The notes beneath the pieces are model-generated. The model was given only the letters and a program-made list of their open reading frames with translations. It did not search any database and was not told the DNA's origin. DNA of 64,000 nt. Origin: Tomocerus qinae (lineage: Eukaryota; Arthropoda; Collembola; Entomobryomorpha; Tomoceridae). Position numbers and translations under genes: made by a program. The DNA is taken from contig CM034546.1 in the NCBI GenBank assembly GCA_020055645.1, forward strand, positions 84,010,001 to 84,074,000, read 5' to 3'. Shown here piece after piece: positions 9,300-38,065 of the stretch (the first letter of the stretch is position 1; every line of letters begins with the position of its first letter).

Positions 9300-9300
9300 T

Positions 9301-10464: not shown

Positions 10465-10939
10465 TGCGTTAACGCACTCTGTTCTTGGGCTTCTTATACA
10501 TGTAAATTTTTCAAATCATTTTTATACGGGGAGAAACTGCAAAGCAGGCAGCGCATTGCCCGAAGGGCAATGTGTGGTTTCACCACTAGTATGCGATTAG
10601 GTACTCGTTCAAATTTTGTCAGCTCCGATTTCTCGAAAACTGGTAATTTCTGTGAAATAATGCAAGATACCGAAAAGATAAAGCAGTCGTCGGTGGGTTG
10701 CGATCCAGGTCAACATCAGCTTTCCGGTGCCAACTTTAGCCGTAGGAACCGGAAGAATGAATTTTGAAATTGTTTGGTCACCAATTTATCTCCTTGGCTA
10801 CTTAGTGCAATGCATCATAGTCATAGTCAATTGGGTACTGAATGGAGTGGATGGACTCATGATCATGGAACTAGGAATACACAGTGATACATTCCATTTC
10901 CTAATTCAATCTCCGTAGATACGGAGTGCACTGAATTGG

Positions 10940-11213
10940 CTCATTGATTGGTATGAATAAGAATAAATATTTACTACAAAGTAAAAAGTATAAGTAAAAT
11001 GTCTAGACTTGAAGTAAAAGGTAGAAGCAAAAGCATTTGCTTCAAATCGAAGGAATAAAAGAAAACTTTTACTGTCAAGCAAATCCTTTGAAATTGTAGT
11101 ATTTACTTCTCAATTTTGTACAGAGCAAAAATTGTTATTCATACCAAAGAAACCTTTTACTTCAAAAACTTTAAGTAAAAGCATAAGGTAGACCTTATTC
11201 ATACCACTCATTG
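10940..11213. mobile_element. 260-bp MITE inside the Helentron 5' region
   Basis: The inverted ends TGGTATGAATAAG (about 10949) and CTTATTCATACCA (to about 11205) enclose AAGTAAAAG-rich sequence. CTCATTG is repeated on both flanks (10940-10946, 11207-11213). Copies lacking it (9301-10464) read straight through this point. The same insertion is in the right arm (about 33193-33455), so it predates the inverted duplication. Confidence 0.7.
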
Positions 11214-11643
11214 GCTGGTATCAACCAATAATGATAATAATGTCGGATTTCAAAATGCATTTATTTCTGTTACGTAGTATTACCCAAGATCATAGTCAAA
11301 TTCTTTATTAGTGCAATGCATCATAGTCATAGTCAATTGGTTACTGGATGGATTGTGATGACTAGGAATACACATTGAAACATTCCATTTCCTAATTCAA
11401 TCTCCGTAGATATACAGATTACTGAGTGAACAATCTGATTTGATAACACTTCATTTCAATCAACCCGTTGCAGATCTCTATTGAAAATTAAAAGTGAATA
11501 ATGAACTTACAACTTATTTATCGTTTTATTATCTTAATTTCTATCACCTTCATACATTATTGTATATAATTGTGTATATTTATATACAATTCTGTAATAG
11601 TTTATTAACATTTCTATATATATAGTTGCTAATTGACAATTCT
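11214..11643 (-). other. Partial duplicate of Helentron 5' sequence, then 3' UTR of the membrane gene
   Basis: 11281-11413 repeats, with changes, the segment at about 10800-10918 (GTGCAATGCATCATAGTCAT and following). 11440-11643 is the probable 3' UTR of the minus-strand gene, with AATAAA on the minus strand at 11530-11525, about 115 bp after its stop codon. Confidence 0.55.
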
Positions 11644-12500
11644 TTAAACATTGCTAGTGTTCGTATTATTGCTTCTTGAAGTTTCTATTTTTATTTCATT
11701 TAATGCATCTTTCATTTCTAATATATCCTTCACTAATATTTTATTTATAATTTGTTTTCTATTGTTATACCGAATTATTATAAGTATCACAACAATGAAC
11801 ATAAAACCGCAAACTTCTAACCCTGTCCTAGCTATTTTAACTAAAACAGTATCCATTAAAGTGTCGTTGCAGTTGGGTATGTCCATTTCTTTTTTTGTTT
11901 CCACAACAGGGCATTTCATTTGTTCCACGGTAGGACATTTAATGCCTTTCGCTTTGCTCCAAATTATTATTGGTAGGCAAGATCTTCTTTCAGTTCCTGC
12001 TAGAGAGTTGCACGGGCAGAATTTTGGTGCCCGTGGCTGCCCGTGCCCGTAGCAAATATGCCTGTGCCCGCCCATACCCGTACGGGCACGGGCCGGGCAG
12101 CTGCCCGCACGGGCATTAGGTGCCCGTACAACTCTTATATAGAGTTGCACGGGCAGCATTTTGGTACCCGTGGCTGCCCGTGCCCGCAAACATTTTGAAA
12201 ATCATGCCCGTGCCCGCCCATACCCGTACGGGCACGGGCCGGGCAGCTGCCCGCTCGGGCATTGGGTGCCCGTGCAACTCTCTAGTTCCTGCTATAAACA
12301 ATGATCATTATAAAATACATTGTGATGATTAAAAACTATATTTTATTTCATATCACCTACAAATAATTACCTTCCATTTGGCCAAAATTGACATTATCCG
12401 TATCAATTTTAACATCCACACTTGGTCTATCTTGGGGAATTGGCATTGCAACTGTTCGCATTGCAATCACCAACAATATCAAGACTATTTCCTTTATCAT
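11644..12500 (-). CDS. Spliced small type I membrane protein gene inside the Helentron (left copy)
   Basis: Exon 1 is 12500-12371 and exon 2 is 11996-11644: 160 residues plus stop. Exon 1 starts MIKEIVLILLVIAMRTVAMP, a signal peptide, and ends GAAG before GTAATT. Exon 2 begins after CTCTCTAGCAG and restores the frame (M-E-G-T-E-R-R-S-C). Its lumenal part has four spaced cysteines and an N-D-T sequon. A membrane helix follows (VCGFMFIVVILIIIRY, residues about 112-127), then a basic, amphipathic cytoplasmic tail. A GC-rich MITE sits in the intron at its 3' end. A TATA box lies about 120 bp upstream of the ATG, and AATAAA follows the stop. No family recognised. Gene structure is inferred from splice signals, frame and the signal-peptide/TM layout. 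Confidence 0.6.
11992..12293. mobile_element. GC-rich foldback MITE inserted at a splice acceptor (left copy)
   Basis: The element spans 12002-12283. Its ends AGAGAGTTGCACGGGCA / TGCCCGTGCAACTCTCT are inverted repeats, and AGTTCCTGCT is duplicated on both sides (11992-12001, 12284-12293). The interior is a head-to-tail dimer of a roughly 140-bp unit that is itself a GCCCGTGCCCG palindrome, joined at TTATATAGAG. On the gene strand the duplication reads AGCAGGAACT, that is, the 3' splice site plus five exon bases. The 9-10-bp duplication fits a Mutator-like element. The right-arm copy is 32123-32403. Confidence 0.85.
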
Positions 12501-12620
12501 CTATAATGTTATAATAATAATTTATATTATTACTACTATGCTGTACATATTTATTGCTGCTACTCTACATATTTATTCACAAATTGGAAATAAGATTAAT
12601 TTGAGATTAATATTTACCTT

Positions 12621-12627
12621 TTTATAG
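12621..12627 (-). promoter_or_regulatory. TATA box of the left membrane-protein gene
   Basis: TATAAAAAGG on the minus strand, about 120 bp upstream of the ATG at 12500. Just upstream (12640-12720 in plus coordinates) a roughly 40-bp segment containing TTTCAGTCTGTAGAAACTAT is repeated twice in tandem, which could be a promoter-proximal element. Confidence 0.4.
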
Positions 12628-12729
12628 ACAAAATTCTTTTTTCTCCTTTTCAGTCTGTAGAAACTATTCTTCCAAATTATTCTCCTTTTTCAGTCTGTAG
12701 AAACTATCCTTCCAAATTATTAATGCCCA

Positions 12730-13352
12730 GTTTCGTTTCTCTGCTTCAGAATTATTACATTGACTGCTTTAGTGTATCAAATAGACTATACCTGCATGAA
12801 TTAGATACTTCTTATTTACTCATGAAATAATGTTTTCAAATACATGCATTTCATGTATACATTTCTACTACATGTTATTGCCCTTACATCTTCTTATCTC
12901 TTAATTTTATTGCTATTCAGCGAATGTTATTTGTTAGAGTACCAAAATAGCAAATCATTCTTTTATGAGTCATTCAGTCAGGCATTCAGAACTTTTGTCA
13001 ATCGCTCAACAACGAAGTCTTGGATATTTCTTACCCAATATTCCTCGAAATTGCATTATGCAGATATTAAGTACTTCTCTTTCATGACTTTCATGTTGGT
13101 TTGTTTGTCTCGCTTTGTTAATGCTACGGTCTATAAATGTCATATTCAAAGGAGGCGTTTACTTCCATGCAAATTTATTTTTCCTTGATGCCTGCAAATT
13201 TTGCCTTTATGTGTAACACAATACGACCATAAAATACTGCATCGTTCAAACGTTGTCATTGTTTTCCATAAACTCTAGATTTGTTCATATTAAAGAACCG
13301 TTACTACTATATATTATTGATTTTACATTTAACACTGCTAACATGAAAAAAA
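12730..13352. other. Intergenic stretch between divergent membrane gene and ORF1
   Basis: The membrane gene is transcribed leftward and ORF1 rightward, so this should hold both promoters. The open frame at 12844-13188 is hydrophobic and low in complexity. It starts inside the presumed promoter region and shows no family feature, so I do not call it a gene. Confidence 0.35.
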
Positions 13353-16249
13353 ATGTATTCAAATAATGGTGAAAATATTGACTTAATTGTCATTCATTTC
13401 CAAAAGTTAAGAACTGAAAACCCAGAGTTATCTTCGAACTACATTTATGAAAATTCAATTTATGGATTTGCTTCAACTTTATTTTACGGCCAAAATACAA
13501 TCGCAGAGAGAAGAAAATTGTATTATGTTATTAATAAACATGAAAAGGTAATTCTTTAAAAAGTTTTAATTATTATTATTAATATTTATATCTTGGGTAT
13601 CTGTCTGTACATACAACTTTAAATTATGTTTCTATTATCTAGATAACCAAACAACAAAAACTTGTGACTGCAATAGTACAAAATGTACCTAAGGAACAAG
13701 TGGATTTTTCTACTCTACTTCCTGTTTCTGAAGTCGATTTATTGGACGCTTTTAAAACTAAATTTAATAAAAAAGCCAATCTTAACCCGACACACATTAA
13801 TTCTTTCTTTGGTCAAGTTTCCGAAACTATATGGTGTGGCTACAATACGATTGAATCAAGAAATTACCTGCGTTCCCAATGGGACAGTAGATTTAAGGTG
13901 ACAAATTTTATTTATTTTATTTATATAACACCAAAAAATTTGCAAAAATTAAATATTCTTTCATTTATTTATTTTCAGATCTTAGTCAAATCTATTGAAA
14001 AATCTCAATGTGAAACCGATGAACCAGTTTCTTTTTCGAAATATTTCTCTCAAAAACTTGTGACTGCAATAGTACAAAATGTACCTAAGGAACAAGTGGA
14101 TTTTTCTACTCTACTTCCTGTTTCTGAAGTCGATTTATTGGACGCTTTTAAAACTAAATTTAATAAAAAAGCCAATCTTAACCCGACACACATTAATTCT
14201 TTCTTTGGTCAAGTTTCCGAAACTATATGGTGTGGCTACAATACGATTGAATCAAGAAATTATCTGCGTTCCCAATGGGACAGTAGATTTAAGGTGACAA
14301 ATTTTATTTATTTTATTTATTTAACACCAAAAAGTTTGCAAAAATTAAATATTTTTTCATTTATTTATTTTCAGATCTTAGTCAAATCTACTGAAAAATC
14401 TCCCTGTGAAACCGAAGAACCAGTTTCTGTTTTGAAAAATGCATTTAAAATGTTGACTTTCAATCGCCGAAAAAAGAAAAAGAATCAACTATACTATCCT
14501 GTTATCCAAAGCAAAAGGGCTAGACTTGAAAATATTGCTGATAATGCCAATTCGGTTACAGATAAGAATAATTTTTCAATTTCTATAGAAATTGATAACC
14601 AAACTGTTAATAACAACTTACTTAATAATGGAGTTCATAATTCTTTGGGTGACCGCAGTGATGATGTAGATTGTCAATTGCATGTTGTCAATATTCTTCA
14701 AAATAATGACCCTGACAACATAATACCTACAATTGATAATGAAAGACCTCATCCAATACTATCTATTAATGGGTATATTGAAGGGTTAAAAACTTTAATT
14801 GATACTTTAAAATCTGATTACATGTCAGCGATTAACACATTTGCAATTTTTCCGTGTCAAATGTGTAGTAAGTTATTGTATAATAACCAAAAGCGTTGTT
14901 ATACAGTTTCTCAACCTATATTGACACAAATTGATTCGATTATTACTTTTACAGAAATAAGTGCCCCGAATGCTGAGTTTTCTAACTTTTTGCATGAATT
15001 TAGAAGACAACTAAACAATTGCTCTTTGCAAGTATGTCACCGATGTCATAGTCATTTGGTTAAGAATAATATTCCTTCATATTCTTTATTAAATAAAATG
15101 AAAATGCCAAGCGCCCCTGCGTTAATTGCATCGCTTACTGATGTTGAAATTAGACTAATTAGTCAGATTAAAGTCTATTTGAAGATTTATAATTTATCAA
15201 AAGGCACTGGTCAAAATGCATGTAAAGGGGCTGCTATACACTTTCCGCAGAGTGTTGACGAAGTCTATGAACAGTTACCACTAAACTTTGCTGATTCAGA
15301 TATTATTATTGTTTCTGAATCTTTGGAAGGGGGTGAGCATAACCGTGAATTTGAAATTAGACCTCATTTAATTAAAAATGCTTTGATTTGGTTAAAAACA
15401 AATAATCATCTATATAAAAATGTAAATATTAATATTTCTGAGACATTATCAATGCCTATACTGCACATTGCACAACCTTTATTACCACAACTACCTGCAT
15501 CCCCAATATTTCCGGAAGGCTTTATTGGCTTTACTCCAATATCAAATAATAGGGAAATTTTAAGGGCCACGATTTCCCAGTCTTGCAACATTTTTTCGGC
15601 TCAAAATCGTGGTCGTCAATGTGGGGCTATTTGTATTGTCGCTGCAGCATATGCATTTGTTCAGGCTCCTAATTCATGGAGCCGTAATATAATGGATGAA
15701 ATTATTATTAGTGGTGATGCACATTTCAGTAGATGTTTACTGAATGTTAGTCATCAAGAATTATATCTTGCTGATAGCGAGGTAGTTGGGGTCATAACAG
15801 TTGGAATAACCAATTGCAATGTGCAGCTATCTGACGATGGTGATGTCAATTTTCATGGGTTTCTTCCTAAATTCAAAGGTAGAGGTATAAATAGACTTCC
15901 CAATGCTATCTCACAATTTATTCAAAGTCAGCATATATTTGGATTGATTACAACTAATTCTTATTCTCTTCTACTCATTAAAACTGAGGAAAATATTTAT
16001 TTATTTGACTCCCACGAAAGAACGACAAATGGCCGATTAAGTAGAAACGGAGCAGGAATGGCATGCATTGTTAAATTTCCTATTTTAACTGCTCCTAATT
16101 TAATTTCTTCGTTAATAGCTGCCAATTGTCAACCAAAAAACATTGATGCAATGACTTTAGCTATTAGAGATGCTGAATTAAAGTTTGGATTTACAATTGA
16201 GTTCGAGAGTTCTAAAAGTACACTTTTCAGTAACAATCTCTGTCTCTAA
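13353..16249 (+). CDS. Helentron ORF1: duplicated N-terminal exon, DUF6570-like region, C76-like cysteine protease (left copy)
   Basis: Exon 1 (13353-13547) splices in phase 0 (AAG before GTAATT, acceptor TATCTAG at 13642) to a long exon. An N-terminal module of about 132 residues (starting LVTAIVQNVPKEQ) occurs twice in tandem. Each copy contains an 81-bp intron (13898-13978, 14294-14374; GTGACA...TTTTCAG) that is a multiple of three, so the frame is open even unspliced. Next comes a basic linker, then a DUF6570-like region with CQMC (near 14851) and CHRCH (near 15034), LTDVEIRLISQIKV and ALIWLKTNNHLY. The last part has GRQCGAICIVAAAYAF (Cys near 15620) and FDSHERTTNGRLS (Asp/His near 16009), the Cys and DxH pattern of the Peptidase_C76 (herpesvirus tegument-type deubiquitinase) fold. 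The frame then runs into the insertion at 16194 and stops at 16249, so the last 18 residues are not original. It is likely the N-terminal half of one long polyprotein with Rep/helicase. Confidence 0.7.
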
Positions 16250-17476
16250 TGGAGACAATAAAGTGTCACTATTGTCACCCAAGAGCAATACCCGACAGTC
16301 CCCAACCAATTGTCGACAAAAGACTTTCCGTTCCTTAGCTTTGTTAACAACCACATTTTGTTTCTATGTAAAATGAAATGAACCCAATCCCAATTAATGT
16401 CGATGAAGAACTATTCTTCGCAAAAGTTTAGCAATACCCAAGAAATTAATTTTGATTTTTCTCGGAATTCTTTCTCTCTTTTGCGTTCAATCAAGAAAAT
16501 CTTTTGCGCTCAAATAAACGTAAGAATATATATGCTGAAAATGCCTATAGATATGAAATATTTCAACGCCAAATGCGATTGATTTTTGGTAATGGATACA
16601 TTGCAGTATTTCAAAAACCGGTCACCATTTGCCTTTTTATAATCTCTATAAATTAATAAAATTTAAACAACCAAAAATTTTTTTACTGTATTTTTATTAG
16701 GATGGGTCAGAGAAAAACGAAAATAGTGACGGGTAGCATATTAAGCAACTTTGTATTGAAGAAAAAATTCCTGATTTTTTGGATTTGGAAAAGAACTCAA
16801 AAAATTGGATATGATTTTGCATTGGGAAAACATTTCGGGGTCGGACATTACATTTTATTCCCTTTGATAGATATGTCACCTTTCCCAATACTATTCCGGG
16901 AGACAATATAGCTGATTAGTCTATGTTCGGTAACCAACCGTTTTGCTATCTAAAGCTAGAATAGAATAGGTAAATGGTCAAAATAAGGAAATAGAGAAAT
17001 GTAGACTGAGAAAAGTATTCTTTGTCTGGTGGCATCTTTAAAAATCAAACACATTTAGCCGCTGTCCACGTTACTAGCCAATTGTAGCTGCTGTCCAATT
17101 TATTAGGCAATTTAATTGGACGACTGGTAAAAATGGTTTTGGTCGGATAAAATTGAACGCTAAATGTGGCGTTAATGTCACCTGTTAACTATAGCTAAGC
17201 AAATAGGGTGGCACTGGCACTGTAAATCACCTAAAAAATAAAACTCACTGAAAATAGGAGGGCCTAATAGCCTAATGGACCAACTGTCGTTAACCGGTAT
17301 CAAAGTATCAAAGGGATATGGATGGGTAAAAAACTAACCCATATCTTGATTGTCGGACATCTACCAGTAGACTTTCGGGTGTTTACTAAGTATACTTTTA
17401 AATAATTTGGCCAGTTCACAAAATAAAAAATAGTTGTTATTGAAAAGTGTACTTTTAGAACTCGCAAACTCAATTG
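16194..17476. mobile_element. 1.28-kb terminal-inverted-repeat insertion splitting ORF1 from Rep/helicase (left copy)
   Basis: The ends match in inverted orientation over about 40 bp: CAATTGAGTTCGAGAGTTCT then AAAAGTACACTTTTCAGTAA on the left; TTATTGAAAAGTGTACTTTT then AGAACTCGCAAACTCAATTG on the right. No clear target duplication. Internally there are only fragments of frame. One (about 16480-16640) reads LRSNKRKNIYAENAYRYE then IFQRQMRLIFGNGYIAVF, with a coding look I cannot assign. The same insertion is in the right arm (26931-28212). Confidence 0.7.
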
Positions 17477-20400
17477 CACCATTGGTAATTAATCAACTAG
17501 GTGCGCAACCTAATTTACATCAACCTATTAGTTCACCTCGGCAGGTTGATTATAACGTGGATATGAATTATTCTAGTTCTGAATCAGATGACAATGATAA
17601 TGAAGAGCATTTATGTATGCCAATTATTGATTTGGATCCAGGTCTAGAGAAACAAATAACTGATGTCGCAATCTTAAATATTGATTATACTGAACCAGTT
17701 ATTAGGGACTTTGTGGCAAATATGTTACCAGGCTATAATCAATTTTCTCTGCGTAGACAAATTGGCAAACCGATTTCAGCAAATAAAGATCAGCGCATGG
17801 AAGAACTAGCATTTGTTCAATTATTTCCTCATGGGGAGTTTGGACTACAAGAACCACGGTCTATCGCTATTACTCCTCTAGATTATTATCAAACTAGAAT
17901 TATGGGTTCTGATAAGCGCTTTCATAGGAATGATTATTTATTTTATGCTTTGAGTAGAGTAGAGGAGCATAAAGTTTTGCAAAAAATTGCTGTTTGTACC
18001 AAGATGAAAACTGGGAATGATCCACATAATCCTATTCAAGAAAATGTTTTTGACATAACAGGGCTTAATGACATTAATCTGTTTATGTCAGGTATAAGGG
18101 AACTGGATCATACTGGCAAAAATATCGTGGAGACACAATTGCTATGATCAAACAATTAGGCTCTCCAACATTTTTGACCATTTCCTATGATGATTTGAAT
18201 GCAGCTGATGTTATAAATGCTTTGTATAAAGCTAAATATGGGTCTGATGTGCCACATATTCTTCCAGAATCCCTTTCTTACTTAGAAAGACGTGATCTCT
18301 TGAATGAACATCCTGTCACAGCCTCAAGGCACTATATACGCAGACTAAACAAAGTATTTAATATAATAAAACGTCACGCTGTTGAAATATTTGGATTGCC
18401 TTTGCAAGATTATACATATAGAATTGAATTTCAAGGCAGAGGCAGTCCGCATTGTCATTGTTTTATATGGCTTCAAAATGTACCCGACTATAACACTGAG
18501 GAAGGAAAAGTATTTATAGACAAGAACATTAGTTGCTCTTTAAAAACTATTTTCCGTGAATTGGTATTGAAATATCAAAATCATAAACATACTCCTACGT
18601 GTTTTAAAAAGTCTGGCTCATCCTGTCGATTTGGATTGCCTAGAGCTGTATGTGAAAAGACGAGAATTTTAAACGACGATGAGATTCTGGCTAATAAAGG
18701 TAGATTAGTGGTGATTAAAAGAGATAAGGACGAAATAATGATTAACAATTATCATCCTGTCCTCCTACCTATATTACAGTGTAATATGGACATTCAGCTT
18801 GTTACTAACGCTATTACATGTGCATATTACATTGCTAAATATATGAGCAAATCGGAACCAAATACAATTAGCACAGATTGTCAGTCTATCCTTAGTAAGA
18901 TTAGAAGTAGCAATTTAGTTACTGCTGAGAAACATAAAAGAATGGCTTTGGCCCTTATGAGAATGAGGGAAGTTAGTGCCCCAGAAGCTGCATTTAGACT
19001 TTGTCATTTACATTTAAGACGCAGTTCTAGGTCTCATGTATTTATACCGGCATTTACCGTTGACAAACGAATAAGGATGATTAGAAAAGAATCTTTACTT
19101 GACAATGAAAGACAATATTGTACTAGCGGGCTGGAGAAATACATTGCCCGACCAGAGTCCTTAGAATCACTTTGCTGGTTTGAGTTTGCAGTAGATTACC
19201 AAGACGTCCGTAATAATAATGCAGTTGAAGATAATGAAGAATTGGAGGTTGACGATATTATTGAAGGTGGTATGGATGAATTTAGACCTATTTTACATCT
19301 ATTGAACAACTTGGGGAGAATTAAAAAAGATCTAAATCTGCTGTTGCCAAATATCCTAATTTCAACCCCACTGAAGAAAGAGACAGTTATTTATACTCTC
19401 TCATATTATTATATTATCCGTTTAGGGTTGAAAATTTCTTGGAGCAGCATAATAATATTTTGGATGCATTTAAAGCACTAAAAACCCAATTCAGAACCAC
19501 TGCAGACAATATAAGCATTAGACATGACTTGGCTGAAGAATTAGAAAGAGCCATATTACGAATGCATGAATTTGACTTTAATGAAAATGATCGTGATGTT
19601 GTTGAAAATTCTATTGATATGTTCCAAGACTTGGTTTGTGACGATATTGGTGAAGCTCAATATAATAATAATGACTTTTTCCAAGAATAGACCATCCCTT
19701 GGATGTCATTTCCATTTTCAACACGTTAAATCCCGAACAAAAATCAGTTTTCAATAAAGTCAGTCATTCAGTATCGTCGAATTCTCATTGCATGGTAATA
19801 GTCAGTGGCAGTGGGGGTACTGGTAAATCATATTTGATTCGACTAATATCTGCTTATTTAAAGCAAACTATAACAAATGGACAAATTCAATCCCCAGTAC
19901 TTTTGTGTGGCCCCACAGGTGTGAGTTCCAAAAATATAAACGGAATTACTTGCCACAAAGCATTTTGTCTTCCCATTGAAAAGGGTAAAGCCCCTTCGTG
20001 GAGTCCCCTTTCTTCGAACCGATTGGGCCAATTAAGACAAGTATACTCTAATCTTAAATGGGTCATCATTGACGAATTTTCTATGGTTAGCTATGAAATG
20101 TTACAAATGATTCATTTAAGATTAGATGAAATTTTTCCCGGTACTTGTCTACCTTTTGCGGGCATTAATATTATGTTGTTGGGTGATTTAATGCAAATGA
20201 AGCCAGTTTTCGGAAACTGGATTTTCGATAAGCCTATATCGATGTTAGCCCAGGAACATTTATGGAGACAATTTCAATTTTGTGAGTTATTTGTTAATCA
20301 AAGGCAAATTAGAACTGATCCCTTACTAAAAGTTTTGAATAATCTTCGAGAAGGAAATGTAACTGCGGAAGATTTATCTATATTACAAACAAGATTTATA

Positions 20401-21164
20401 AAAGATTCAGATCCTAGTTACGAAGCGGTTCTTAAAGAATACGAAGAAGAATTATGGATATTTCCTACAAATGCATTGTCCAGGAAATATAACAAAAAAT
20501 GACGAAAACTTTAAAGAAAAAGGTTACAATTTATTTAATTTACGCTGAAGACACTTATTGTGACGCTGCAAGGTTAGGTAAAAAATGTGATGAGGCCGAC
20601 GTTCCGAAGGATATTAAAGATACTGCAGGTATTCCTAACAAGTTGGAATTGGGTATTGGTAGTCGTGTCATGTTACGAAGAAACATTAGTGTGGCTGATG
20701 GTTTGGCCAATGGCTCATTAGGTACAATCGTTGGCTTTAAATGGCAAATGCTAAGAAAACAACCAATAAGAGAAGGAGAGTTGCCAGAAAAAGTATATGT
20801 TAGATTTGATGATCCTATTTATGGCAACAGAGTAGACGAGAATGGTGCAGTAGCCATAGAATTAATGTCCATGGAGTTTGATGGAAAAAAGGGATCCATA
20901 ATTTCCAGGAAAATGGTACCTTTAATTCTTTGTTGGGGAATTAATATACACAAAATTCAAGGTGTTACTTTAACAAAAGCCATGGTTTGTGTAGACAAAT
21001 TTTTTCAAACTGGCATGGCATATGTAGCTTTGAGCAGAGTTAAAAGTCTTGAAGGGCTTAGGTTGTGTTCATTGAATATTAATTCTTTAATGACTCGCAA
21101 AAAGTGGAAAAGGTCCTGCTTCTATTCCAGCTTTACGCGAGATGTACAGACTACGATTGTCTAA
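17477..21164 (+). pseudogene. Helitron-superfamily Rep/helicase region, frameshifted (left copy)
   Basis: 17477-18147 encodes the Helitron N-terminal region (LFPHGEFGLQEP, DYYQTRIMGSDKRFHRND). 18110-19481 encodes the Rep nuclease, with the HUH motif as GSPHCHCFIWL (near 18445) and two-tyrosine motif CAYYIAKYMSK (near 18820). 19699-21164 encodes a PIF1-type helicase: Walker A GSGGTGKS (near 19810), Walker B IIDEFSMV (near 20065), GDLMQMKP (near 20182) and AYVALSRVKSLEGLRL (near 21025). Breaks: an apparent missing base near 18111 that is also in the right copy, and single-base shortenings of homopolymers near 19323, 19675 and 20494 that the right copy lacks. Canonical Helitrons carry the same Rep-Hel order. 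No endonuclease domain follows. The role would be rolling-circle nicking and strand displacement. Confidence 0.85.
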
Positions 21165-21253
21165 CATTTTGCACGACTTGTCTAATATAGATGAAATGAT
21201 AGATTGGATATTGCTCCCATGTAAATAAAGTAAAACTGCAAAATAAATAAATA

Positions 21254-21372
21254 ACAGGTAAAAACCTGGAGAAAAAGATACGGGGAGTGGGGGCAATATT
21301 TTTTCTGCGATTAAAACTAAAAAACAAGAATTATTTACGTCACATAATAATAATATCCGTATTTCTCCCCGT
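21254..21372 (+). promoter_or_regulatory. Helentron 3' terminus with subterminal hairpin
   Basis: CAGGT-AAAA-ACCTG (21254-21267), about 105 bp before the terminal TTTCTCCCCGT (21362-21372), is conserved in the 1.16-kb elements (CAGGGAAAAACCTG-type). It is the likely 3' termination signal. The terminus pairs with the 5' ACGGGGAGAAA as an 11-bp inverted repeat. Confidence 0.55.
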
Positions 21373-22642: not shown

Positions 22643-22661
22643 GTTTAGTGCACCGAACGTT

Positions 22662-23100
22662 TCTGCATCAAAATGAAGTTGTTAGTCGTATTCCTGCATC
22701 GTCGATTGGAGAAACTCTGGTCAGTAAAAAAATTCAGTTTACTACATCAAAATGAAATTGTTAGTCGTATTCCTGCAACGTCGATTGGAGAAACTCTGGT
22801 CAGTAAAAAAATTCAGTTTACTACATCAAAATGAAATTGTTAGTCGTATTCCTGCAACGTCGATTGGAGTAACTCTGGTCAGTAAAAAAATTCAGTTTAC
22901 TACATCAAAATGAAATTGTTAGTCGTATTCCTGCATCGTCGATTGGAGTAACTCTGGTCAGTAAAAAAATTCAGTTTACTACATCAAAATGAAATTGTTA
23001 GTCGTATTCCTGCATCGTCGATTGGAGTAACTCTGGTCAGTAAAAAAATTCAGTTTACTACATCAAAATGAAGTTGTTCGTCGGATTTTTGCATTGTCGT
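22662..23100 (+). repeat. 79-bp tandem repeats derived from the signal-peptide exon start
   Basis: Six ATG-bearing units start exactly 79 bp apart (ATG at 22673, 22752, 22831, 22910, 22989 and 23068). Each begins CATCAAAATGAARTTGTT, like the start of the gene at 22137 (CATCAAAATGAAGTTGTTC). Each encodes about MKLLVVFLHRRLE before a stop in the middle units, so the hydrophobic core is broken by a shift. GGTCAGTAAAAAAATTCAG lies between units. AATAAA at 23200 may polyadenylate a transcript of the upstream gene that runs through the array. Confidence 0.9.
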
Positions 23101-23402
23101 TTGGAAGATGAGGAATTCATTGTTGATTCAAGAAGAAATTCATTCGAGTGACTCATTGGCATTCAGAATTAAGATTACTCATACAGATTAATTGTGTATA
23201 ATAAATATCTTGTAAACTGTAAAATGTATTGCACACATTTGTTATTATTATTACATTAAAATATTCGTAGGTTTCAGTTCAACGGGGAGAAATACGGATA
23301 TTATTATTATGTGACGTAAATAATTCTTGTTTTTTAGTTTTAATCGCAGAAAAAATATTGCCCCCACTCCCCGTATCTTTTTCTCCAGGTTTTTACCTGT
23401 TA

Positions 23403-23730
23403 AAATAAGTCAAGTAATTAAGGCATTATTAAATTGATAATATAATATCCTGTCGTGGTGAACATAAGAGGTACTTAAATACCCTGATTTCGAATATGGC
23501 CACCGATATATCATCAGAATGACCCCATCCGATATAGGCGATATTATATTAAATAAACTCTTAGATATAATATCTATTTCTATTCCGTTGAGCGTCGGTA
23601 TACTAGGAATGTTCCGATTTTTTGAAGAAAATTGTAAAATTACGAGCTAAATATGCTCCAGAAAATATTAGATAAATTATAATATTGTAACATTGATAAA
23701 TTATTATAAAATATAATAAAAATAATATTA
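23403..23730. other. Foreign 328-bp segment replacing the helicase 3' end in the right arm
   Basis: On both sides the sequence matches the left arm exactly (CCAGGTTTTTACCTGTTA up to 23402; CATGACACGACTACC from 23731). Between them it is unrelated, AT-rich and non-coding. It resembles the AT-rich mosaic at 33877-44628 in composition (TTATAATATTG, AAATATAATAAAAATAATA). Confidence 0.75.
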
Positions 23731-26700
23731 CATGACACGACTACCAATACCCAATTCCAACTTGTTAGGAATACCTGCAGTATCTTTAATATCCTTCGGA
23801 ACGTCGGCCTCATCACATTTTTTACCTAACCTTGCAGCGTCACAATAAGTGTCTTCAGCGTAAATTAAATAAATTGTAACCTTTTTCTTTAAAGTTTTCG
23901 TCATTTTTTTGTTATATTTCCTGGACAATGCATTTGTAGGAAATATCCATAATTCTTCTTCGTATTCTTTAAGAACCGCTTCGTAACTAGGATCTGAATC
24001 TTTTATAAATCTTGTTTGTAATATAGATAAATCTTCCGCAGTTACATTTCCTTCTCGAAGATTATTCAAAACTTTTAGTAAGGGATCAGTTCTAATTTGC
24101 CTTTGATTAACAAATAACTCACAAAATTGAAATTGTCTCCATAAATGTTCCTGGGCTAACATCGATATAGGCTTATCGAAAATCCAGTTTCCGAAAACTG
24201 GCTTCATTTGCATTAAATCACCCAACAACATAATATTAATGCCCGCAAAAGGTAGACAAGTACCGGGAAAAATTTCATCTAATCTTAAATGAATCATTTG
24301 TAACATTTCATAGCTAACCATAGAAAATTCGTCAATGATGACCCATTTAAGATTAGAGTATACTTGTCTTAATTGGCCCAATCGGTTCGAAGAAAGGGGA
24401 CTCCACGAAGGGGCTTTACCCTTTTCAATGGGAAGACAAAATGCTTTGTGGCAAGTAATTCCGTTTATATTTTTGGAACTCACACCTGTGGGGCCACACA
24501 AAAGTACTGGGGATTGAATTTGTCCATTTGTTATAGTTTGCTTTAAATAAGCAGATATTAGTCGAATCAAATATGATTTACCAGTACCCCCACTGCCACT
24601 GACTATTACCATGCAATGAGAATTCGACGATACTGAATGACTGACTTTATTGAAAACTGATTTTTGTTCGGGATTTAACGTGTTGAAAATGGAAATGACA
24701 TCCAAGGGATGGTCTATTCTTGGAAAAAAGTCATTATTATTATATTGAGCTTCACCAATATCGTCACAAACCAAGTCTTGGAACATATCAATAGAATTTT
24801 CAACAACATCACGATCATTTTCATTAAAGTCAAATTCATGCATTCGTAATATGGCTCTTTCTAATTCTTCAGCCAAGTCATGTCTAATGCTTATATTGTC
24901 TGCAGTGGTTCTGAATTGGGTTTTTAGTGCTTTAAATGCATCCAAAATATTATTATGCTGCTCCAAGAAATTTTCAACCCTAAACGGATAATATAATAAT
25001 ATGAGAGAGTATAAATAACTGTCTCTTTCTTCAGTGGGGTTGAAATTAGGATATTTGGCAACAGCAGATTTAGATCTTTTTTTAATTCTCCCCAAGTTGT
25101 TCAATAGATGTAAAATAGGTCTAAATTCATCCATACCACCTTCAATAATATCGTCAACCTCCAATTCTTCATTATCTTCAACTGCATTATTATTACGGAC
25201 GTCTTGGTAATCTACTGCAAACTCAAACCAGCAAAGTGATTCTAAGGACTCTGGTCGGGCAATGTATTTCTCCAGCCCGCTAGTACAATATTGTCTTTCA
25301 TTGTCAAGTAAAGATTCTTTTCTAATCATCCTTATTCGTTTGTCAACGGTAAATGCCGGTATAAATACATGAGACCTAGAACTGCGTCTTAAATGTAAAT
25401 GACAAAGTCTAAATGCAGCTTCTGGGGCACTAACTTCCCTCATTCTCATAAGGGCCAAAGCCATTCTTTTATGTTTCTCAGCAGTAACTAAATTGCTACT
25501 TCTAATCTTACTAAGGATAGACTGACAATCTGTGCTAATTGTATTTGGTTCCGATTTGCTCATATATTTAGCAATGTAATATGCACATGTAATAGCGTTA
25601 GTAACAAGCTGAATGTCCATATTACACTGTAATATAGGTAGGAGGACAGGATGATAATTGTTAATCATTATTTCGTCCTTATCTCTTTTAATCACCACTA
25701 ATCTACCTTTATTAGCCAGAATCTCATCGTCGTTTAAAATTCTCGTCTTTTCACATACAGCTCTAGGCAATCCAAATCGACAGGATGAGCCAGACTTTTT
25801 AAAACACGTAGGAGTATGTTTATGATTTTGATATTTCAATACCAATTCACGGAAAATAGTTTTTAAAGAGCAACTAATGTTCTTGTCTATAAATACTTTT
25901 CCTTCCTCAGTGTTATAGTCGGGTACATTTTGAAGCCATATAAAACAATGACAATGCGGACTGCCTCTGCCTTGAAATTCAATTCTATATGTATAATCTT
26001 GCAAAGGCAATCCAAATATTTCAACAGCGTGACGTTTTATTATATTAAATACTTTGTTTAGTCTGCGTATATAGTGCCTTGAGGCTGTGACAGGATGTTC
26101 ATTCAAGAGATCACGTCTTTCTAAGTAAGAAAGGGATTCTGGAAGAATATGTGGCACATCAGACCCATATTTAGCTTTATACAAAGCATTTATAACATCA
26201 GCTGCATTCAAATCATCATAGGAAATGGTCAAAAAATGTTGGAGAGCCTAATTGTTTGATCATAGCAATTGTGTCTCCACGATATTTTTGCCAGTATGAT
26301 CCAGTTCCCTTATACCTGACATAAACAGATTAATGTCATTAAGCCCTGTTATGTCAAAAACATTTTCTTGAATAGGATTATGTGGATCATTCCCAGTTTT
26401 CATCTTGGTACAAACAGCAATTTTTTGCAAAACTTTATGCTCCTCTACTCTACTCAAAGCATAAAATAAATAATCATTCCTATGAAAGCGCTTATCAGAA
26501 CCCATAATTCTAGTTTGATAATAATCTAGAGGAGTAATAGCGATAGACCGTGGTTCTTGTAGTCCAAACTCCCCATGAGGAAATAATTGAACAAATGCTA
26601 GTTCTTCCATGCGCTGATCTTTATTTGCTGAAATCGGTTTGCCAATTTGTCTACGCAGAGAAAATTGATTATAGCCTGGTAACATATTTGCCACAAAGTC

Positions 26701-26930
26701 CCTAATAACTGGTTCAGTATAATCAATATTTAAGATTGCGACATCAGTTATTTGTTTCTCTAGACCTGGATCCAAATCAATAATTGGCATACATAAATGC
26801 TCTTCATTATCATTGTCATCTGATTCAGAACTAGAATAATTCATATCCACGTTATAATCAACCTGCCGAGGTGAACTAATAGGTTGATGTAAATTAGGTT
26901 GCGCACCTAGTTGATTAATTACCAATGGTG
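23731..26930 (-). pseudogene. Rep/helicase region, right copy, C-terminally truncated
   Basis: 26973-26260 covers the Helitron N-terminal region (its first codons lie in the insertion's repeat). 26232-23728 is one uninterrupted 834-codon frame from the Rep nuclease (HUH motif GSPHCHCFIWL, CAYYIAKYMSK) through helicase motifs GSGGTGKS, IIDEFSMV and GDLMQMKP to GIGSRVM. There the foreign segment begins, so the last helicase motifs are lost. It lacks the three homopolymer frameshifts of the left copy. It shares the break near 26280 (left 18111), and it has an extra T near 26231 that splits the frame from the N-terminal part. Confidence 0.85.
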
Positions 26931-28212
26931 CAATTGAGTTTGCGAGTTCTAAAAGTACACTTTTCAATAACAACTATTTTTTATTTTGTGAACTGGCCAA
27001 ATTATTTAAAAGTATACTTAGTAAACACCCGAAAGTCTACTGGTAGATGTCCGACAATCAAGATATGGGTTAGTTTTTTACCCATCCATATCCCTTTGAT
27101 ACTTTGATACCGGTTAACGACAGTTGGTCCATTAGGCTATTAGGCCCTCCTATTTTCAGTGAGTTTTATTTTTTTAGGTGATTTACAGTGCCAGTGCCAC
27201 CCTATTTGCTTAGCTATAGTTAACAGGTGACATTAACGCCACATTTAGCGTTCAATTTTATCCGACCAAAACCATTTTTACCAGTCGTCCAATTAAATTG
27301 CCTAATAAATTGGACAGCAGCTACAATTGGCTAGTAACGTGGACAGCGGCTAAATGTGTTTGATTTTTAAAGATGCCACCAGACAAAGAATACTTTTCTC
27401 AGTCTACATTTCTCTATTTCCTTATTTTGACCATTTACCTATTCTATTCTAGCTTTAGATAGCAAAACGGTTGGTTACCGAACATAGACTAATCAGCTAT
27501 ATTGTCTCCCGGAATAGTATTGGGAAAGGTGACATATCTATCAAAGGGAATAAAATGTAATGTCCGACCCCGAAATGTTTTCCCAATGCAAAATCATATC
27601 CAATTTTTTTGAGTTCTTTTCCAAATCCAAAAATCAGGAATTTTTTCTTCAATACAAAGTTGCTTAATATGCTACCCGTCACTATTTTCGTTTTTCTCTG
27701 ACCCATCCTAATAAAAATACAGTAAAAAAATTTTTGGTTGTTTAAATTTTATTAATTTATAGAGATTATAAAAGGCAAATGGTGACCGGTTTTTGAAATA
27801 CTGCAATGTATCCATTACCAAAAATCAATCGCATTTGGCGTTGAAATATTTCATATCTATAGGCATTTTCAGCATATATATTCTTACGTTTATTTGAGCG
27901 CAAAAGATTTTCTTGATTGAACGCAAAAGAGAGAAAGAATTCGAGAAAAATCAAAATTAATTTCTTGGGTATTGCTAAACTTTTGCGAAGAATAGTTCTT
28001 CATCGACATTAATTGGGATTGGGTTCATTTCATTTTACATAGAAACAAAATGTGGTTGTTAACAAAGCTAAGGAACGGAAAGTCTTTTGTCGACAATTGG
28101 TTGGGGACTGTCGGGTATTGCTCTTGGGTGACAATAGTGACACTTTATTGTCTCCATTAGAGACAGAGATTGTTACTGAAAAGTGTACTTTTAGAACTCT
28201 CGAACTCAATTG
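26931..28212. mobile_element. 1.28-kb terminal-inverted-repeat insertion (right copy)
   Basis: Same insertion as 16194-17476, inverted with the arm. Differences seen are homopolymer lengths only, for example near 27606 and 27630. Its presence in both arms dates it before the duplication. Confidence 0.7.
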
Positions 28213-31055
28213 TAAATCCAAACTTTAATTCAGCATCTCTAATAGCTAAAGTCATTGCATCAATGTTTTTTGGTTGACAATTGGCAGCTATTAACGAAGA
28301 AATTAAATTAGGAGCAGTTAAAATAGGAAATTTAACAATGCATGCCATTCCTGCTCCGTTTCTACTTAATCGGCCATTTGTCGTTCTTTCGTGGGAGTCA
28401 AATAAATAAATATTTTCCTCAGTTTTAATGAGTAGAAGAGAATAAGAATTAGTTGTAATCAATCCAAATATATGCTGACTTTGAATAAATTGTGAGATAG
28501 CATTGGGAAGTCTATTTATACCTCTACCTTTGAATTTAGGAAGAAACCCATGAAAATTGACATCACCATCGTCAGATAGCTGCACATTGCAATTGGTTAT
28601 TCCAACTGTTATGACCCCAACTACCTCGCTATCAGCAAGATATAATTCTTGATGACTAACATTCAGTAAACATCTACTGAAATGTGCATCACCACTAATA
28701 ATAATTTCATCCATTATATTACGGCTCCATGAATTAGGAGCCTGAACAAATGCATATGCTGCAGCGACAATACAAATAGCCCCACATTGACGACCACGAT
28801 TTTGAGCCGAAAAAATGTTGCAAGACTGGGAAATCGTGGCCCTTAAAATTTCCCTATTATTTGATATTGGAGTAAAGCCAATAAAGCCTTCCGGAAATAT
28901 TGGGGATGCAGGTAGTTGTGGTAATAAAGGTTGTGCAATGTGCAGTATAGGCATTGATAATGTCTCAGAAATATTAATATTTACATTTTTATATAGATGA
29001 TTATTTGTTTTTAACCAAATCAAAGCATTTTTAATTAAATGAGGTCTAATTTCAAATTCACGGTTATGCTCACCCCCCCTTCCAAAGATTCAGAAACAAT
29101 AATAATATCTGAATCAGCAAAGTTTAGTGGTAACTGTTCATAGACTTCGTCAACACTCTGCGGAAAGTGTATAGCAGCCCCTTTACATGCATTTTGACCA
29201 GTGCCTTTTGATAAATTATAAATCTTCAAATAGACTTTAATCTGACTAATTAGTCTAATTTCAACATCAGTAAGCGATGCAATTAACGCAGGGGCGCTTG
29301 GCATTTTTCATTTTATTTAATAAAGAATATGAAGGAATATTATTCTTAACCAAATGACTATGACATCGGTGACATACTTGCAAAGAGCAATTGTTTAGTT
29401 GTCTTCTAAATTCATGCAAAAAGTTAGAAAACTCAGCATTCGGGGCACTTATTTCTGTAAAAGTAATAATCGAATCAATTTGTGTCAATATAGGTTGAGA
29501 AACTGTATAACAACGCTTTTGGTTATTATACAATAACTTACTACACATTTGACACGGAAAAATTGCAAATGTGTTAATCGCTGACATGTAATCAGATTTT
29601 AAAGTATCAATTAAAGTTTTTAACCCTTCAATATACCCATTAATAGATAGTATTGGATGAGGTCTTTCATTATCAATTGTAGGTATTATGTTGTCAGGGT
29701 CATTATTTTGAAGAATATTGACAACATGCAATTGACAATCTACATCATCACTGCGGTCACCCAAAGAATTATGAACTCCATTATTAAGTAAGTTGTTATT
29801 AACAGTTTGGTTATCAATTTCTATAGAAATTGAAAAATTATTCTTATCTGTAACCGAATTGGCATTATCAGCAATATTTTCAAGTCTAGCCCTTTTGCTT
29901 TGGATAACAGGATAGTATAGTTGATTCTTTTTCTTTTTTCGGCGATTGAAAGTCAACATTTTAAATGCATTTTTCAAAACAGAAACTGGTTCTTCGGTTT
30001 CACAGGGAGATTTTTCAGTAGATTTGACTAAGATCTGAAAATAAATAAATGAAAAAATATTTAATTTTTGCAAACTTTTTGGTGTTAAATAAATAAAATA
30101 AATAAAATTTGTCACCTTAAATCTACTGTCCCATTGGGAACGCAGATAATTTCTTGATTCAATCGTATTGTAGCCACACCATATAGTTTCGGAAACTTGA
30201 CCAAAGAAAGAATTAATGTGTGTCGGGTTAAGATTGGCTTTTTTATTAAATTTAGTTTTAAAAGCGTCCAATAAATCGACTTCAGAAACAGGAAGTAGAG
30301 TAGAAAAATCCACTTGTTCCTTAGGTACATTTTGTACTATTGCAGTCACAAGTTTTTGAGAGAAATATTTCGAAAAAGAAACTGGTTCATCGGTTTCACA
30401 TTGAGATTTTTCAATAGATTTGACTAAGATCTGAAAATAAATAAATGAAAGAATATTTAATTTTTGCAAATTTTTTGGTGTTATATAAATAAAATAAATA
30501 AAATTTGTCACCTTAAATCTACTGTCCCATTGGGAACGCAGGTAATTTCTTGATTCAATCGTATTGTAGCCACACCATATAGTTTCGGAAACTTGACCAA
30601 AGAAAGAATTAATGTGTGTCGGGTTAAGATTGGCTTTTTATTAAATTTAGTTTTAAAAGCGTCCAATAAATCGACTTCAGAAACAGGAAGTAGAGTAGAA
30701 AAATCCACTTGTTCCTTAGGTACATTTTGTACTATTGCAGTCACAAGTTTTTGTTGTTTGGTTATCTAGATAATAGAAACATAATTTAAAGTTGTATGTA
30801 CAGACAGATACCCAAGATATAAATATTAATAATAATAATTAAAACTTTTTAAAGAATTACCTTTTCATGTTTATTAATAACATAATACAATTTTCTTCTC
30901 TCTGCGATTGTATTTTGGCCGTAAAATAAAGTTGAAGCAAATCCATAAATTGAATTTTCATAAATGTAGTTCGAAGATAACTCTGGGTTTTCAGTTCTTA
31001 ACTTTTGGAAATGAATGACAATTAAGTCAATATTTTCACCATTATTTGAATACAT
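28213..31055 (-). CDS. Helentron ORF1, right copy, split by frameshifts
   Basis: Same gene as 13353-16193: first exon 31055-30861, duplicated 132-codon module with its in-frame 81-bp introns, DUF6570-like region, C76-like region (QCGAIC near 28770, DSH near 28400). The frame breaks relative to the left copy at 30637 (five A for six), 29306 (five A for four) and 29078 (seven G for five), all homopolymers. It is either decayed or affected by sequencing error. The C-terminal end runs into the insertion as in the left copy. Confidence 0.65.
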
Positions 31056-31686
31056 TTTTTTTCATGTTAGCAGTGTTAAATGTAAAATCAATAATATATA
31101 GTAGTAACGGTTCTTTAATATGAACAAATCTAGAGTTTATGGAAAACAATGACAACGTTTGAACGATGCAGTATTTTATGGTCGTATTGTGTTACACATA
31201 AAGGCAAAATTTGCAGGCATCAAGGAAAAATAAATTTGCATGGAAGTAAACGCCTCCTTTGAATATGACATTTATAGACCGTAGCATTAACAAAGCGAGA
31301 CAAACAAACCAACATGAAAGTCATGAAAGAGAAGTACTTAATATCTGCATAATGCAATTTCGAGGAATATTGGGTAAGAAATATCCAAGACTTCGTTGTT
31401 GAGCGATTGACAAAAGTTCTGAATGCCTGACTGAATGACTCATAAAAGAATGATTTGCTATTTTGGTACTCTAACAAATAACATTCGCTGAATAGCAATA
31501 AAATTAAGAGATAAGAAGATGTAAGGGCAATAACATGTAGTAGAAATGTATACATGAAATGCATGTATTTGAAAACATTATTTCATGAGTAAATAAGAAG
31601 TATCTAATTCATGCAGGTATAGTCTATTTGATACACTAAAGCAGTCAATGTAATAATTCTGAAGCAGAGAAACGAAACTGGGCATT

Positions 31687-31786
31687 AATAATTTGGAAGG
31701 ATAGTTTCTACAGACTGAAAAGGAGAATAATTTGGAAGAATAGTTTCTACAGACTGAAAAGGAGAAAAAGAATTTTGTCTATAAAA
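31687..31786 (+). promoter_or_regulatory. Promoter of the right membrane-protein gene
   Basis: TATAAAA at 31780-31786, about 120 bp before the ATG at 31906. It is preceded by two tandem copies of a roughly 40-bp element containing ATAGTTTCTACAGACTGAAA. Confidence 0.4.
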
Positions 31787-31905
31787 AGGTAAATATTAAT
31801 CTCAAATTAATCTTATTTCCAATTTGTGAATAAATATGTAGAGTAGCAGCAATAAATATGTACAGCATAGTAGTAATAATATAAATTATTATTATAACAT
31901 TATAG

Positions 31906-32759
31906 ATGATAAAGGAAATAGTCTTGATATTGTTGGTGATTGCAATGCGAACAGTTGCAATGCCAATTCCCCAAGATAGACCAAGTGTGGATGTTAAAAT
32001 TGATACGGATAATGTCAATTTTGGCCAAATGGAAGGTAATTATTTGTAGGTGATATGAAATAAAATATAGTTTTTAATCATCACAATGTATTTTATAATG
32101 ATCATTGTTTATAGCAGGAACTAGAGAGTTGCACGGGCACCAATGCCCGAGCGGGCAGCTGCCCGGCCCGTGCCCGTACGGGTATGGGCGGGCACGGGCA
32201 TGATTTTCAAAATGTTTGCGGGCACGGGCAGCCACGGGTACCAAAATGCTGCCCGTGCAACTCTATATAAGAGTTGTACGGGCACCTAATGCCCGTGCGG
32301 GCAGCTGCCCGGCCCGTGCCCGTACGGGTATGGGCGGGCACAGGCATATTTGCTACGGGCACGGGCAGCCACGGGCACCAAAATTCTGCCCGTGCAACTC
32401 TCTAGCAGGAACTGAAAGAAGATCTTGCCTACCAATAATAATTTGGAGCAAAGCGAAAGGCATTAAATGTCCTACCGTGGAACAAATGAAATGCCCTGTT
32501 GTGGAAACAAAAAGAAATGGACATACCCAACTGCAACGACACTTTAATGGATACTGTTTTAGTTAAAATAGCTAGGACAGGGTTAGAAGTTTGCGGTTTT
32601 ATGTTCATTGTTGTGATACTTATAATAATTCGGTATAACAATAGAAAACAAATTATAAATAAAATATTAGTGAAGGATATATTAGAAATGAAAGATGCAT
32701 TAAATGAAATAAAAATAGAAACTTCAAGAAGCAATAATACGAACACTAGCAATGTTTAA
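31906..32759 (+). CDS. Spliced small type I membrane protein gene (right copy)
   Basis: Exon 1 is 31906-32035 and exon 2 is 32409-32759. Same architecture as the left copy: signal peptide, four-cysteine lumenal part, N-D-T sequon, one membrane helix, basic tail, AATAAA at 32873. Two A residues are missing from a run near 32512 (five for seven), which shifts the frame before the membrane helix. The downstream frame resumes at 32499-32759. Given the other homopolymer differences between arms, this may be a sequencing error. The GC-rich MITE (32123-32403) occupies the intron end, with AGCAGGAACT on both sides. Confidence 0.55.
32113..32413. mobile_element. GC-rich foldback MITE at the splice acceptor (right copy)
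   Basis: The element spans 32123-32403 with AGCAGGAACT at 32113-32122 and 32404-32413. Identical in layout to the left copy, one base shorter in a C run. Confidence 0.85.
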
Positions 32760-33876
32760 AGAATTGTCAATTAGCAACTATATATATAGAAATGTTAATA
32801 AACTATTACAGAATTGTATATAAATATACACAATTATATACAATAATGTATGAAGGTGATAGAAATTAAGATAATAAAACGATAAATAAGTTGTAAGTTC
32901 ATTATTCACTTTTAATTTTCAATAGAGATCTGCAACGGGTTGATTGAAATGAAGTGTTATCAAATCAGATTGTTCACTCAGTAATCTGTATATCTACGGA
33001 GATTGAATTAGGAAATGGAATGTTTCAATGTGTATTCTAGTCATCACAATCCATCCAGTAACCAATTGACTATGACTATGATGCATTGCACTAATAAAGA
33101 ATTTGACTATGATCTTGGGTAATACTACGTAACAGAAATAAATGCATTTTGAAATCCGACATTATTATCATTATTGGTTGATACCAGCCAATGAGTGGTA
33201 TGAATAAGGTCTACCTTATGCTTTTACTTAAAGTTTTTGAAGTAAAAGGTTTCTTTGGTATGAATAACAATTTTTGCTCTGTACAAAATTGAGAAGTAAA
33301 TACTACAATTTCAAAGGATTTGCTTGACAGTAAAAGTTTTCTTTTATTCCTTCGATTTGAAGCAAATGCTTTTGCTTCTACCTTTTACTTCAAGTCTAGA
33401 CATTTTACTTATACTTTTTACTTTGTAGTAAATATTTATTCTTATTCATACCAATCAATGAGCCAATTCAGTGCACTCCGTATCTACGGAGATTGAATTA
33501 GGAAATGGAATGTATCACTGTGTATTCCTAGTTCCATGATCATGAGTCCATCCACTCCATTCAGTACCCAATTGACTATGACTATGATGCATTGCACTAA
33601 GTAGCCAAGGAGATAAATTGGTGACCAAACAATTTCAAAATTCATTCTTCCGGTTCCTACGGCTAAAGTTGGCACCGGAAAGCTGATGTTGACCTGGATC
33701 GCAACCCACCGACGACTGCTTTATCTTTTCGGTATCTTGCATTATTTCACAGAAATTACCAGTTTTCGAGAAATCGGAGCTGACAAAATTTGAACGAGTA
33801 CCTAATCGCATACTAGTGGTGAAACCACACATTGCCCTTCGGGCAATGCGCTGCCTGCTTTGCAGTTTCTCCCCGT

Positions 33877-37757: not shown

Positions 37758-38065
37758 GAGTTTTTGAAGGAAATTGTAAATTTACGAGTTTAATTTATAT
37801 CTTGGTATCTAAATAATGCCTTGTTTTCGAGTTTTTCTGGTATTCTCACCGTATATTTTTCCAGGTAAAAATTTGAAATGATTTTATAATAATATCACTT
37901 TAGATATTATATTTTAATAATAATTATCATAATTATTATTAATAAAGTATTATTATAATATATTATCATCTCATTACCGAATTTATTAGATACTATCAGA
38001 TATTATATCATTAAATATAATATCCTAATTCTTAATATATATTTAAATACTTATTATTTTTTTAT

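Follow-up and report, generated by a model that had tools for sequence, protein, structure and literature searches.

What produced a near-perfect inverted repeat with 10-kb arms in the genome of the collembolan Tomocerus qinae? The repeat lies in the window analysed here, a stretch of 64,000 nucleotides (C1:84010001-84074000, where C1 is the 140-Mb contig CM034546.1); genome searches were made on the assembly of 334 Mb in 115 contigs. Its arms belong to two copies, A and B, of a Helitron2-type rolling-circle transposon. A match of about 10 kb at 99.8% identity is not due to chance. The inverted repeat is likely to be real but not the outcome of one mirror duplication. The arms come from two distinct copies that point in opposite directions, and a larger block, derived almost entirely from Helentron DNA, surrounds them.

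Self-comparison aligns 10519-20673 with 33883-23730 over 10,164 columns, with no mismatches and 17 gaps. The arms are 10,155 and 10,154 bp long and enclose a spacer of 3,056 bp (20674-23729); A and B themselves stand tail to tail, 327 bp apart. The original prediction, made from the window sequence, of a near-perfect inverted repeat without base substitutions is borne out by this comparison and by a three-way alignment of A, B and a third copy on contig 8 (C8), while its 10.8-kb arms and 1.8-kb spacer give way to the measured lengths. The inner limits that it gave, 21373 and 23281, fall within a separate, exact 183-bp inverted repeat (21252-21434 and 23220-23402), which is internal to A and present in the contig-8 copy too. 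All 17 differences between A and B are homopolymer run lengths in the three-way alignment (nine peculiar to B, seven to A, and one run that differs in all three copies), the pattern that long-read consensus error would be expected to leave. Since the arms differ by no substitution, the pair is very young.

The outer end of each arm is the terminus of the element, TTTT followed by TATACGGGGAG, which is seen independently in the contig-8 copy and in copies elsewhere of a shorter relative, R. The 5′ end common to A, B and the contig-8 copy is TTTTTATACGGGGAGAAACTGC, and the DNA that precedes it is different in each; A is preceded by a partial R unit (R1) and a T-rich stretch, and B by 40 bp of exact satellite, whose 60-bp repeat also surrounds the contig-8 block. 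Beyond their 3′ ends, too, A and the contig-8 copy have different DNA. A reaches its 3′ hairpin, CAGGTTTTTACCTG; B is without the last 2.7 kb, and its broken end lies inside the helicase gene, against AT-rich DNA. Because each outer arm end is a transposon 5′ terminus with its own flank, and because B is 2.7 kb short, the arms are two separate copies, and the proposed choice between a young palindrome and an assembly fold-back was too narrow. The unrelated flanks of these termini also argue against a simple fold-back artefact, which is rejected; the centre is asymmetric and the flanks are not mirrored.

A DNA query from open reading frame (ORF) 1, positions 14000-16000, finds matches of about 100% at A, B and C8:981467, and the next best elsewhere reaches 72% (all six candidates scored). 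A and the contig-8 copy align over 12,896 columns with two mismatches and 11 gaps, junction bases counted in; compared with A and B, the contig-8 copy shows one substitution (12204) and run-length differences. The G-run at 18097 is shorter in A and B than in the contig-8 copy, which has an open Rep/helicase frame of 1266 amino acids (aa). The frameshifts of A and B, one of which, near 18111, had been counted among the old lesions, therefore cannot be taken as such. Of three shared insertions also claimed, one was verified, an insert of 1.28 kb (16194-17476, with 43-bp inverted ends) that separates the DUF6570/protease frame from the Rep/helicase frame in all three copies. The contig-8 copy lies 23 bp from a 100-N gap. 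It is itself part of another Helentron block of 22 kb (L010-L012, C8:977987-999948) inside the 60-bp satellite, in which 5′ ends face outward and inverted pieces match at 95.7% and 98.6%.

The element is assigned by its proteins and its termini. The Rep/helicase protein of the contig-8 copy (P0001) contains Helitron_like_N (7.8e-22) and PIF1 (2.3e-27) domains. It has 55 homologues at E<=0.001, and in an alignment with eight of them H341 and H343 of the HUH motif and Y467, Y471 and K474 are invariant. Among the homologues are arthropod proteins in which a single chain unites DUF6570, a tegument-protease-like domain, Rep and helicase; here DUF6570/protease and Rep/helicase occupy separate frames. 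The 5′ end carries ACGGGGAG and CATTGCCCGAAGGGCAATG and the 3′ end CTCCCCGT and CAGGTTTTTACCTG, which gives the element asymmetric or subterminal inverted repeats and terminal hairpins. Domains, motifs, termini and the T-run target thus make it Helentron-like at the family level, as predicted. It fits Helitron2 better than a Helentron in the strict sense because the endonuclease domain was not found (no Exo_endo_phos match at E<=0.1 in P0001, ORF1 or four other ORFs of the element). A search of 9000-45000 against Rfam gave no match at gathering scores.

According to the parts of PMC5148889 available, Helitron2 (FoHeli) elements combine Rep and helicase with asymmetric terminal inverted repeats, hairpins and a T-rich target, and form composite or nested self-insertions, with multiple 5′ termini and a model of opposite orientation. 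The element described here resembles them in its Rep and helicase, terminal repeats, hairpins, T-rich target, nesting and multiple 5′ termini. Unlike them, as far as those parts go, it has an internal inverted copy of its own 3′ end; nor do they mention the AT-rich module tracts, the long target duplication or the 10-kb tail-to-tail pair that are present here. Helentrons and DINE-1/HINE elements, in the portion of PMC4067079 available, have in common with it the subterminal inverted repeats, a 3′ palindrome, a TT or poly-T target and non-autonomous partners (here R), and Helentrons differ in the endonuclease domain.

The 3′-terminal 183 bp of A are repeated, inverted and identical, 2 kb further inward, and the same design is found in R at about 96%, the repeated 3′ segment measuring 160-183 bp in A and R. 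On a single strand, the two 183-bp copies could form a giant stem-loop. The tail of A also has a small ORF (22035-22427), which the truncated B lacks; its sequence MKLFIVFLLIAGVSC resembles a secretion signal by eye. This ORF has no homologue at E<=0.001 and no Pfam match.

The arm pair is held in a block of 35,327 bp (9297-44623), absent from the original prediction, that consists of Helentron DNA in both orientations and AT-rich filler; its parts follow one another as listed in Table 1. At 80% identity or more, 87.1% of the block matches Helentron or satellite DNA of other loci (contig 8 and L040); the AT-rich tracts make up 10.1%, and together these account for 96.7%. What is left uncovered in pieces longer than 60 bp consists of the 327-bp spacer, a stretch of 493 bp in the R-like relative X4, and pieces of 94 and 131 bp. 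Seven fragments of 31-220 bp, in both orientations, match R at 97.7-100%, and a few more do so at 87-91%. Of 16 breakpoints counted in R-derived pieces, six lie within the first 56 nt of R, near GGGGAG and the 5′ hairpin (post hoc p 2e-6); two of these six coincide at one base, and the count left out the end of R1, the X4-derived piece and the shortest pieces. A contig-8 breakpoint that had seemed to lie at the 5′ hairpin, at 35598, was discarded on reading the sequence.

Table 1. Parts of the block and of the duplicated target that bounds it, in window coordinates
Feature	Positions	Strand	Remarks
Left copy of target duplication X, 259 bp	9041-9299	+	ends ...CAGCTGTT at the 5′ end of R1
R1	9297-10473	+	5′ part (1-1171) of R
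Copy A, full-length 12.9-kb Helitron2-type element	10519-23402	+	left arm 10519-20673
ORF1 of A	13643-16249	+	DUF6570; weak (below cut-off) herpesvirus-tegument-like protease match
Insert with 43-bp inverted ends	16194-17476		between ORF1 and Rep/helicase; common to A, B and contig-8 copy
Rep/PIF1-helicase coding stretch of A	17434-21164	+	frame broken at homopolymer runs; 1266 aa open in contig-8 copy
Internal inverted copy of the 3′-terminal 183 bp of A	21252-21434	-	
3′ end of A	23220-23402	+	CTCCCCGT and hairpin CAGGTTTTTACCTG
AT-rich spacer between A and B	23403-23729		327 bp
Copy B, right arm	23730-33883	-	has the 5′ end of A; 3′ truncated inside helicase gene
Piece of contig-8 60-bp satellite	33884-33923		40 bp, adjoining the 5′ end of B
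AT-rich tract 1	33924-35718		about 9% GC; exactly duplicated modules
R2	35719-37866	+	R unit without outermost 5′ bases and 3′ tip
AT-rich tract 2	37867-38058		
X4, R-like relative	38059-39936	+	38116-38531 100% identical to contig-8 DNA
Fragment, R 1-40	39996-40035	+	exact
AT-rich tract 3	40036-40984		partly inverted copy of tract 1 (347 bp exact)
Fragment, R 1017-798	40985-41204	-	exact
Fragment, R 106-60	41213-41259	-	exact
R3	41292-43413	-	inverted relative to R2; cut at base of 5′ hairpin
AT-rich tract 4	43414-44053		
Short R/X4 fragments	44054-44492		both orientations
Right copy of X	44624-44883	+	runs on into uninterrupted target at 44884

The AT-rich tracts are built of repeated modules. 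The stretch 33884-44623 holds 98 maximal exact repeats, each at least 30 bp long and some direct, some inverted; the longest AT-rich one measures 347 bp and is inverted. Such repeats take up 75% of the 3,576 bases of AT-rich tract, compared with an average of 0.05-1% in simulations (15 at each of three Markov orders). A whole-genome search with the first 737 bp of tract 1, in which 30 of 30 candidates were scored by a tool that skips simple repeats, gave no match of at least 100 bp at 86% or more outside the block. Low-GC tracts number four, all in the block; there are none in the rest of a 104-kb stretch or in 60 kb of contig 8, none in eight five-kb samples, and none at 20 R loci that total 93 kb, one of which overlaps the window. 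Inside tract 1, 38 bp (34603-34640) match three places on C4 at 97-100% and are likely to be a captured scrap of another repeat. Palindromic AT-rich repeats place AT-rich inverted modules at rearrangement junctions. The tracts are like them in having such modules and unlike them in that some 3.6 kb of these are spread over four tracts in a single transposon block.

R is a non-autonomous relative of 2.15 kb and a young family that is widespread throughout the genome. At least eight copies outside the block span 1-2148 or 1-2078 at 99.3-99.9%; with 39 of 1134 candidates scored, the counts are lower bounds, and R2 and R3 are not among the matches listed. The termini, TTTT followed by TATACGGGG and, at the other end, CCCTGTTATATTT, are close to the Helitron2 target reported in the available text of PMC5148889. 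TTTT precedes the 5′ end at 17 of 20 R loci (the exceptions are R1 itself in L049, the inner end at L052, and L056). In the near-identical copies it does so in 8/8, 7/8 end in ...CCCTGTTATATTT, and no longer target duplication is seen by eye. At L042, the internal inverted 3′ end of an older element is followed immediately, at ...TTATATTTTTTATTTTATTGTTTT, by an R unit on the minus strand, a nested insertion in the opposite orientation. Tandem 5′ ends occur at L044, L052, L057 and L058. A hand count of 5′-end pairs less than 5 kb apart, among the matches listed, gives five tail-to-tail, two direct and one head-to-head; an excess of tail-to-tail pairs was considered and set aside, since the direct pairs at L052, L057 and L058 bring the figure to 5/11 among those matches, no clear excess.

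The block is bounded by direct copies of a target sequence, X, of 259 and 260 bp with one gap between them, 255 bp being exact. The right copy continues from CAGCTGTT into ACAAAT, and the left copy from CAGCTGTT into ATACGGGGAG, the start of R1. With 40 of 303 candidates scored, two places hold a near-exact X. Relatives at 68-75% identity (five of five fetched, from 62 matches of all kinds listed) run through the insertion joint; because none of these relatives reaches the left flank, it is the two copies of X alone that define the duplication's left edge. Read by eye, the edge of X contains a fold-back-like palindrome. The 259-bp duplication belongs to the whole block and not to a clean single insertion.

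There is about an even chance that the block began as a young cluster of self-insertions into T-rich sites and was then scrambled by error-prone copying and joining of neighbouring pieces. The first step would have been a nick by Rep at a TT site, to which Rep joined the 5′ end of R1; further Helentrons would then have entered T-rich stretches, A behind R1. Breaks may have arisen near terminal hairpins and AT-rich stretches. The synthesis that repaired them would have switched from template to template, in one direction or the other, and end joining would have closed some of the junctions. Such repair would have yielded the AT-rich modules, the fragments with broken ends, and B, truncated and carrying its scrap of satellite. 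To judge from the nested insertion at L042, the internal inverted 3′ end may serve as a T-rich target that faces the other way, and copies entering there would come to lie tail to tail. The exact AT-rich modules, the exact fragments with broken ends, the breakpoints near hairpins and the palindrome at the edge of X point to template-switching repair or replication. Many templated pieces are present in both orientations, as in template switching of the microhomology-mediated break-induced replication (MMBIR) type.

Several points weigh against this account. Microhomology, which template switching should leave, is absent at all three junctions between two identified pieces (those of the AT-rich tracts are not scorable); at 41204/41213, 41259/41268 and 44183/44185 there are instead 8, 8 and 1 unexplained bases, and one to eight extra bases without microhomology are what end joining would give. 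Because of these junctions, our confidence in the joint explanation fell from slightly better than even to even. The block works like copying repair, yet it is not filed as MMBIR. R being young and spread over the genome, the identity of R2 and R3 needs no common event. The 3′ junction of A lacks the ending seen in R copies, and the right edge of the block is without a clean Helentron 5′ end. The analysis was made from the assembled consensus alone, and assembly error is possible. Finally, the flanks of another tail-to-tail pair, L045, are not duplicated, and the target duplication is therefore no regular outcome. For the same reason, two-ended insertion is not supported as the general origin of tail-to-tail pairs; that idea came from the contig-8 block, in which both outward 5′ ends are flanked by the same 23-bp satellite phase, and satellite repeats anyway.

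Ordinary serial transposition, in which each Helentron entered T-rich or AT-rich DNA on its own, facing either way, and some copies were afterwards shortened by deletions, comes next, as a possible though doubtful explanation. It agrees with the youth and spread of R, the nested opposite insertion at L042, the tandem 5′ ends at four loci, the clean 5′ end of A, and the nested and composite Helitron2 insertions described in PMC5148889, as far as available. However, it leaves unexplained the AT-rich modules, which are duplicated exactly and lie in both orientations (found nowhere outside the block in the search with 737 bp of tract 1), the exact fragments of 31-220 bp broken at both ends, the satellite scrap that B carries along with a broken 3′ end, and the 259-bp target duplication.

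It is unlikely that one event made the whole 35-kb block. A rolling-circle Helentron intermediate at a TT site would have gone on copying while it switched strands and Helentron templates, with fold-back at the terminal hairpins and at the palindrome of X itself; its sealing 259 bp upstream would have left a long duplication of the target on either side of an inverted transposon island that was scrambled at once. The junctions without microhomology made this reading slightly less probable than before. To the same degree improbable is an assembly error, that is, a chimeric joining of Helentron copies and AT-rich reads into a block that is absent from the chromosome. Assembly is difficult where three 10-kb copies are almost identical and where tracts are low in GC, the homopolymer differences between A and B indicate that the consensus is likely imperfect, and the contig-8 copy lies close to a gap. 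However, the outer arm ends are a transposon terminus with differing flanks, many of the pieces, at 31-347 bp, fall well below the length of long reads, and X is cleanly duplicated, with relatives that show the empty site. One in-place inverted segmental duplication would give long, near-identical arms in close inverted order, but it is highly improbable and is rejected, as the flanking DNA is not shared by the arms (the 500 bp left of A and the 500 bp right of B have at most a 25-bp match) and B carries satellite DNA that has no other match in the 104-kb stretch.

Nested Helitron2 insertion, in opposite orientation too, is already described; what is unusual here is the AT-rich scrambling and the long target duplication. 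FoSTeST, in the available part of PMC8277862, is a template-switching model in which terminal inverted repeat elements capture sequence other than transposable elements, often with microhomology. The block is like its products in having chimeric pieces copied from nearby DNA around transposons, and unlike them in that the pieces mostly come from the element's own family and the scorable junctions are without microhomology. A giant inverted pair of whole Helitrons or an AT-module mosaic was not found in the titles and the openings of abstracts listed, where subscription journals are thinly covered; PMC6927752, consulted in part for the term 'tail-to-tail', deals with a different subject.

The window contains other repeats outside the block. 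A second inverted pair, a 5.5-kb palindrome (99.3%) at 46873-52391, surrounds an ORF of 703 aa and apparently lies inside a non-LTR (long terminal repeat) element; by eye, the ORF is reverse-transcriptase-like and Penelope-like, and it has no Pfam match. DUF1759, a weak RVT_1, Integrase_H2C2 and DUF5641 domains at 56505-62539 belong to an LTR element, which we take to be BEL/Pao-like. A 21-bp tandem array of about 28 copies occupies 1798-2385.

Helitron-type transposons are known for copying and shuffling DNA, and to our knowledge the intermediate steps are rarely seen. A block as young as this one keeps its junctions readable. It would show how inverted pairs, truncated copies, AT-rich filler and a long target duplication can all arise together from one family, and it gives warning that near-perfect inverted repeats need be neither palindromic duplications nor assembly fold-backs.

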